A stretch of DNA of 64,000 bases, from assembly GCA_015832175.1 (NCBI GenBank), contig WJXW01000007.1, forward strand, positions 124,001 through 188,000, read 5' to 3'. Below, one piece after another: positions 5,326 through 6,249 of the stretch (its first letter is position 1; each line of letters starts with the position of its first letter). The notes under the pieces are model-generated. The model saw nothing but the letters and a program-made list of their open reading frames with translations, ran no database searches and was not told the origin of the DNA. Source of the DNA: Paraphaeosphaeria minitans (lineage: Eukaryota; Ascomycota; Dothideomycetes; Pleosporales; Didymosphaeriaceae). The translations under genes and the position numbers were made by a program.

Positions 5326-5330
5326 AAAAA
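5326..5330 (-). terminator. Pol III terminator of tRNA-Pro
   Basis: On the minus strand a run of five T follows the tRNA 3' end after three bases, as expected for RNA polymerase III termination. Confidence 0.7.
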
Positions 5331-5369
5331 GATGGGTCTTACCGCGATTCGAACGCGGGGCCTCTCGCA

Positions 5370-5387
5370 AATGTGCTCAGGTAACAG
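5370..5387 (-). other. Canonical tRNA intron (after position 37)
   Basis: An 18-nt insertion between G37 and T38 of the anticodon loop, CTGTTACCTGAGCACATT. This is the normal position for eukaryotic tRNA introns cut by the tRNA splicing endonuclease. Confidence 0.85.
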
Positions 5388-5403
5388 CCCTAAGCGAGAA
5401 TCA

Positions 5404-5452
5404 CTGAACAATTGTTAGTTAATGTTGAGCTTATTGAAGCTGATGTACTTAC
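5404..5452 (-). other. Spliceosomal-type intron inside the tRNA-Pro D arm
   Basis: The 49-nt insert starts GTAAGTACAT, has AACTAACAATTGTTCAG at its 3' end (branch-like CTAAC about 10 nt before a CAG acceptor), and lies between nucleotides 21 and 22 of the tRNA. Its length equals that of mRNA introns elsewhere in this window (49 nt in the Zn2Cys6 gene, 49 and 51 nt in the ankyrin gene). A weak internal hairpin, AGCTT/AAGCT, is present. That the spliceosome removes it is inference; the motifs and their exact placement are directly visible. Confidence 0.75.
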
Positions 5453-5472
5453 TACCACTAGACCATAAGACC

Positions 5473-6145: not shown

Positions 6146-6249
6146 GCCCGGCTAGCTCAATCGGTAGAGCGTGAGACTCTTAAGTACACGATCTAACATC
6201 TCGATTACTCGGTATCTCAAGGTTGTGGGTTCGACCCCCACGTCGGGCT
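6146..6249 (+). tRNA. tRNA-Lys(CTT) with intron
   Basis: Acceptor GCCCGGC (6146-6152) pairs with GTCGGGC (6242-6248). D arm is GCTC-AATCGGTA-GAGC, anticodon stem TGAGA/TCTCA, anticodon CTT at 6179-6181, and T arm GTGGG-TTCGACC-CCCAC. A 31-nt intron (6183-6213) sits at the canonical place after position 37. The gene runs directly into a T-run. Confidence 0.93.

Follow-up and report, generated by a model that had tools for sequence, protein, structure and literature searches.

Putative spliceosomal-type introns at non-canonical positions in tRNA genes of the fungus Paraphaeosphaeria minitans

The window analysed here, a stretch of 64,000 nucleotides from the genome of Paraphaeosphaeria minitans, carries a tRNA-Pro(AGG) gene that is interrupted twice. 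Its features are listed below in window coordinates; promoter boxes were scored against consensus sequences.

5334..5472, minus strand: tRNA-Pro(AGG) gene with two introns; exons equal to the insert-free paralogue C5:815936-816025
5453..5472, minus strand: 5' exon, positions 1-21, 20 nt, GGTCTTATGGTCTAGTGGTA; 20/20 identical to the copies on contigs C1 and C5
5455..5465, minus strand: A box TGGTCTAGTGG, entirely upstream of the insert; 8/8 specified letters in unspliced DNA
5404..5452, minus strand: 49-nt putative ectopic intron of spliceosomal type between positions 21 and 22; absent from the C5 paralogue, with a diverged 51-nt counterpart in the C1 paralogue
5447..5452, minus strand: 5' splice-site hexamer GTAAGT
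5414..5418, minus strand: branch-point motif CTAAC, with 11 nt from the branch A to the intron end
5404..5406, minus strand: 3' splice site CAG
5388..5403, minus strand: middle exon TGATTCTCGCTTAGGG, position 22 to 37, with the anticodon AGG
5370..5387, minus strand: canonical tRNA intron, 18 nt, after position 37; the same in C1, one base different in C5
5334..5369, minus strand: 3' exon, 36 nt, with the T arm and the 3' strand of the acceptor; 7/7 acceptor and 5/5 T-stem pairs
5345..5355, minus strand: B box CGTTCGAATCG, downstream of the insert; 7/9 specified letters, spliced and unspliced alike
5326..5330, minus strand: Pol III-type terminator TTTTT, beginning 4 nt downstream of the gene

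An earlier sequence-only reading had placed a 49-nt insert running GTAAGT...CTAAC...CAG at 21/22, and this was confirmed when the minus strand was read and compared with the empty site on contig C5. Its further statements also held: removal of the insert restores a tRNA-Pro with exons equal to the C5 paralogue and fully paired acceptor and T stems, the A box precedes and the B box follows the insert, and an 18-nt canonical intron after position 37 is shared with the C1 and C5 copies. When all equivalent placements of the insert borders were tested in this gene, a single placement yielded the spliced product. Gene finders handled the locus poorly. ARAGORN in bacterial mode detected no tRNA in the window and, with introns allowed, labelled the Pro gene tRNA-Pyl; Rfam at its gathering score reported only the neighbouring tRNA in the window and missed the Pro gene. 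Some 700 bp away from the tRNA-Pro gene, the opposite strand carries a tRNA-Lys(CTT) gene with a canonical intron (window 6146-6249, plus strand), and five more copies of it occur elsewhere in the genome. The window also encodes a mannitol-1-phosphate dehydrogenase with 94% identity to a Didymosphaeria variabile protein and 88% identity to a Kalmusia protein, matches that indicate an origin in the Didymosphaeriaceae (Pleosporales).

When the 47.45-Mb genome was searched at the DNA level, three copies of tRNA-Pro(AGG) emerged, namely the window gene on contig C7 and one copy each on C1 and C5. The C5 copy (C5:815936-816025) is an exact empty site, in which nucleotides 1-20 and 70-139 of the window gene align back to back; for this copy ARAGORN reported the canonical intron, i(37,18). 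In the C1 copy (C1:1088673-1088813), the insertion site of the window gene is occupied by a 51-nt insert. Between the C7 and C1 copies, exons and canonical intron are identical (20/20 and 70/70 nt), and the inserts have diverged.

The sequence-only reading had also proposed a scan of the genome's tRNA genes for inserts at non-canonical places. In an incomplete survey of this genome, inserts of GT..AG design were found in 18 tRNA genes and were lacking from 64 (18/82 found). They fall at 12 positions of the cloverleaf and affect ten isoacceptor types, with none at 37/38. Positions are given below in a numbering of our own that follows the spliced product and takes the GT..AG placement.

21/22, Pro(AGG): C7:129334 (the window gene) and C1:1088673
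38/39, initiator Met: C1:568622
46/47, initiator Met: C17:1062495 and C9:583196
60/61, Gly(GCC): C5:756067, C13:831011, C12:1511304, C8:2194090 and C3:2398220
23/24, Leu(AAG): C2:1331638
24/25, Leu(CAG): C2:4313256
10/11, Leu(CAG): C10:238894
52/53, Arg(ACG): C16:818308
18/19, Arg(TCG): C3:3287788
5/6, Thr(CGT): C10:341208
25/26, Ala(CGC): C7:96028
3/4, Ser(CGA): C4:3088709

Both Leu(CAG) genes that were found (L115 and L148) are insert-bearing, at different positions. By reading, a canonical intron accompanies the insert in 14 of the 18 genes, the exceptions being the three initiator-Met genes and Leu(CAG) on C10; canonical introns were common among the tRNA genes of this genome that were read.

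The census draws on at least 52 Rfam tRNA matches in the genome (62 of 1307 first-look candidates scored). The 64 insert-free nuclear genes, assigned with ARAGORN and by eye, comprise 45 of these 52 matches and 19 others, and two of the DNA searches for further tRNA genes scored 40 of 79 and 40 of 50 candidates. Such a census is biased and incomplete, since inserts impair matching to the Rfam model and DNA queries detect close copies only. Among the matches listed there was no nuclear gene for Phe, Tyr, Trp, His, Asp, Val or elongator Met (anticodons by reading), and some of the isoacceptors lacking from the survey may be hidden by further inserts. ARAGORN labels also deviated for some intron-bearing genes (Trp for L052, Tyr for L027 and L032, Val for L035). 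As for other small RNA genes, no insert was present in U6 (one full-length match; 47 of 2663 first-look candidates scored) or in 28 matches to 5S rRNA, each 120-121 bases long and spanning the model from end to end (47 of 2502 candidates scored).

The inserts are uniform in design. They are 49-68 nt long (n = 18), and all 18 read GT..AG, where mononucleotide shuffles of the same inserts lead one to expect 0.04, or 0.06 of 18 when all equivalent border placements are allowed. A GTRNGT start is present in 15/18 (shuffle expectation 0.01), the exceptions being Arg(TCG), Thr and Ala. CTAAC with its branch A followed by the intron end after 9-13 nt is likewise present in 15/18 (shuffle expectation 0.17); the other three have CTTAC (Leu(AAG) and Arg(TCG)) or CTGAT (Leu(CAG) on C2), all at 11-13 nt. 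In three pairs of inserts that share a position (Pro; initiator Met on C17 and C9; Gly on C5 and C13), 45 of 48 signal positions are identical, compared with 55 of 109 other positions. None of the 18 contains TTTT, which is weak evidence given that only one of the 16 mRNA introns predicted in the window does.

Those 16 introns are predictions rather than mapped transcripts (45-84 nt, median 56.5), and they bear on the claim that the Pro insert matches the mRNA introns of the window in length and signals. The likeness in length stands, with 49 nt for the Pro insert and 49-68 nt for the whole set falling within 45-84 nt. The likeness in signals does not, because the prediction itself demanded GT, CTRAY and YAG, which makes the agreement circular.

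The insert borders have a single placement in 8/18 genes and can slide by at least one base, with the same product, in the other 10. In each of those 10 exactly one placement reads GT..AG, so that there the GT..AG borders are picked among equivalents. Insert-free paralogues fix the borders, up to sliding, for Pro, Gly(GCC), Leu(AAG), Arg(ACG), Arg(TCG), Ala(CGC) (L138 against L144) and Thr(CGT) (L137), and the initiator-Met genes provide reciprocal empty sites for one another (38/39 in C1; 46/47 in C17 and C9). The borders for Ser and for Leu(CAG) on C10 are less independent, having been set from signals and pairing. Stem pairing as a border criterion was rejected, as shifted removals often pair equally well; the borders therefore rest on paralogues and partly on signals.

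In all 18 genes, the spliced product has 7/7 acceptor pairs and 5/5 T-stem pairs. With the insert retained, pairs of the T stem or acceptor are lost wherever the insert sits there (the five Gly genes, Arg(ACG), Thr and Ser). A run of at least four T starts 1-38 nt downstream of each gene. Even in unspliced DNA, 7-8 of the 8 A-box letters and 6-9 of the 9 B-box letters of the consensus are present; by that consensus the initiator-Met B box scores 6/9 with the insert in or out, and the B boxes of the five Gly genes drop from 9 to 7 when unspliced.

The initiator tRNA is indispensable to the cell. In a DNA search of the genome, all three candidate initiator-Met genes were insert-bearing, at two alternative positions, and none of the three was insert-free. 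The inserts in these genes must thus be excisable, barring a copy that is absent from the assembly or out of reach of the search.

Taken together, these data suggest that the inserts represent spliceosomal introns of the U2 type within Pol III-transcribed tRNA genes, a reading to which we assign a probability of roughly 0.88 on the strength of sequence comparison. The sequence-only reading had held that the Pro insert is a spliceosomal-type intron and that its tRNA would depend on two machineries, the spliceosome and the tRNA endonuclease. This is still the best-fitting reading, and it is strengthened by 17 more cases, by the empty sites, by drift that spares the signals and by the initiator-Met candidates, none of which is insert-free. 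Most of the 18 tRNAs would need both machineries. In the proposed sequence of events, Pol III would transcribe the gene from internal boxes, largely intact despite the inserts, to the T-run terminator. The nuclear precursor would be bound by the ordinary spliceosome, with U1 at the GTRNGT end, U2 at CTAAC and an AG 9-13 nt further on, and the insert would be released as a lariat. The cloverleaf could then fold and its ends be processed, after which the canonical intron, where present, would be cut by the tRNA endonuclease. Such introns would have been gained at many positions and would since have drifted outside their splice signals.

How they were gained is a separate question. The inserts might be recent copies of a mobile, introner-like intron family, a proposal that concerns their origin and not their splicing. 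The many positions occupied in one genome fit this idea, and introner-like elements have been reported in fungi (van der Burgt 2012, as cited in the accessible part of PMC11889510). However, 11 of the 18 inserts (Pro on C7, initiator Met on C1 and nine others) gave no copy beyond their own gene or the same-position Pro paralogue in a DNA search that was not exhaustive and in which a sequence without matches need not be rare; these queries thus show no sign of identical introners having spread in a recent burst. Also, an all-against-all comparison of 17 inserts gave just three short common stretches, of 11-16 nt. We consider a recent introner-like origin improbable, and the earlier suggestion that the Pro intron arose by reverse splicing or intron transposition gained no support from the same 11 queries, which found no copies elsewhere in the genome.

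Junction sequences were also used as queries against other sequence collections. The Pro and initiator-Met junctions gave no match in viral contigs, nor did the Gly T-loop junction. The latter had one match in a prokaryote contig (L150, a bacterial MAG record) without an Rfam match there, which was judged to be due to chance.

With regard to removal, the tRNA endonuclease could instead excise the inserts at a bulge-helix-bulge, the route taken in archaea and the red alga Cyanidioschyzon. Ectopic tRNA introns at comparable sites are present in archaea, in nucleomorphs and in a red alga, according to the accessible portions of PMC4090602 and PMC3978253, and the endonuclease presumably processes the canonical introns of this fungus. 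Folding was uninformative in either direction: a strict bulge-helix-bulge central helix was found in 0 of the 12 ectopic inserts tested (of 18) and also in 0 of 9 canonical introns, the positive control, and a relaxed placement requiring four pairs was found in 5/12 and 4/9, respectively, neither better than shuffles. What this route leaves unexplained is the uniform GT..CTAAC..AG design and its conservation amid drift. Uniform splice signals would serve no role under endonuclease cleavage, which makes it the less likely route, and we regard it as very unlikely.

Insert-bearing genes could also be pseudogenes broken by a short sequence, their function being supplied by insert-free copies, of which there are one for Pro, two for Gly(GCC), three for Leu(AAG) and four for Arg(ACG). 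Degenerate loci do exist in this genome, such as the tRNA-Ala locus L139 (C9:1488050-1488260). Against this, all 18 genes have kept complete acceptor and T stems and a downstream T run, splice signals are conserved between diverged inserts, and no insert-free copy stands in for initiator Met among the three candidates. In addition, one Gly(GCC) copy (C8:2194090) has a compensatory acceptor pair, 5:68 being T-A compared with C-G in the other Gly copies, with the intron lying between the two halves. We find this explanation barely credible. As to L139 itself, it has kept the 5' part and the acceptor end, and its T arm is replaced by an unrelated stretch that is not of GT..AG design. Self-splicing introns of group I or II were rejected, as their catalytic cores span hundreds of nucleotides and the inserts measure 49-68 nt.

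The reading of the inserts as spliceosomal introns can be set beside known systems. Spliceosomal introns in tRNA genes had no precedent in the titles and abstracts searched, a coverage from which most subscription papers and all preprints were absent, and the lack of precedent for tRNA hosts in that literature is not proof of novelty. The nearest parallels are the mRNA-type introns of fungal U6 snRNA and U3 snoRNA, likewise short, of spliceosomal type and inside a small structured RNA. In the accessible text of PMC5832005 (2017), fungal U3 introns are described as removed by the pre-mRNA splicing machinery, and U3 and U6 as so far the sole small structured RNAs for which frequent interruption by an intron is known; U6 is a Pol III transcript (PMC10484740, part of the text). 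The present hosts differ in being tRNA genes, with another internal promoter and maturation path, and in spanning ten isoacceptor types and 12 positions. Spliceosomal introns are also known in ascomycete rRNA genes (Bhattacharya 2000 and Cubero 2000, both as cited in the accessible part of PMC11889510), again in a structural RNA not made by Pol II, the host there being rRNA and not tRNA.

Among tRNA introns, those of eukaryotic nuclear genes lie mostly or only at 37/38, according to the available sections of PMC3978253 and PMC4090602. These canonical introns, cut by the tRNA endonuclease, occupy the same gene class as the ectopic inserts, and 14/18 genes carry both kinds; the ectopic inserts sit elsewhere and bear pre-mRNA splice signals. 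Archaea, nucleomorphs and Cyanidioschyzon merolae also have introns at non-canonical cloverleaf positions, at times two or three per gene, and the same sections attribute ectopic introns of archaea, nucleomorphs and red algae to the endonuclease or leave them unexplained. From what is available of PMC4090602, those of archaea and C. merolae are tied to bulge-helix-bulge structures and those of the Guillardia nucleomorph measure 3-24 nt with an unexplained mechanism, whereas the fungal inserts measure 49-68 nt and have a uniform GT..AG and mostly CTAAC; in that text no word begins with spliceosom-.

By the usual division, the tRNA endonuclease handles nuclear tRNA introns and the spliceosome handles GT-AG introns. 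In this fungus, Pol III tRNA transcripts of many genes appear to be substrates of the spliceosome, without a cap, polyadenylation or the Pol II tail, which would make testable both the need for Pol II in spliceosome recruitment and the ordering of two splicing systems on one precursor. It seems quite likely from the gene sequences that a whole set of nuclear tRNAs in this fungal lineage, including all initiator tRNA, is obligatorily dependent on the spliceosome, in many cases in combination with the tRNA endonuclease. If so, splicing capacity would directly gate translation initiation, and the tRNA genes would form a naturally kept record of how spliceosomal introns are gained, as the genome also holds their empty-site paralogues. 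How new introns arise would become testable too, since tRNAs are constrained as well as short and the empty sites are found alongside them. In such fungi, tRNA gene finders could miss or misname essential genes, for example initiator Met.

Several other tRNA-like loci were noted. Four mitochondrial-looking tRNAs (C3:2840xxx and C3:2853xxx) were left out of the tRNA count, as were the degenerate loci L136, L139, L143 and L145 and the tRNA-Thr-like fragments L119-L122. The mitochondrial-looking genes (C3:2840217-2840669 and C3:2853038-2853194; L015 and L018) are AT-rich and lie within a large contig, and may reflect a nuclear mitochondrial insertion or a chimeric assembly. L119-L122 (C20:308986, C15:1596554, C15:619094 and C19:355268) are four near-alike repeats holding a degenerate 3' part of tRNA-Thr; two of the four lie less than 10 kb from a contig end, and they are perhaps a tRNA-derived repeat. 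Included among the 64 insert-free genes was an odd tRNA-like gene at C10:840122-840236 (L029), with a good acceptor and D arm, an odd long insert in the anticodon loop that contains two similar segments and, by reading, no T33. Finally, C3:286483-286673 (L124) holds a tandem pair of seemingly identical tRNA-Thr(AGT) genes with 109 bp between them.
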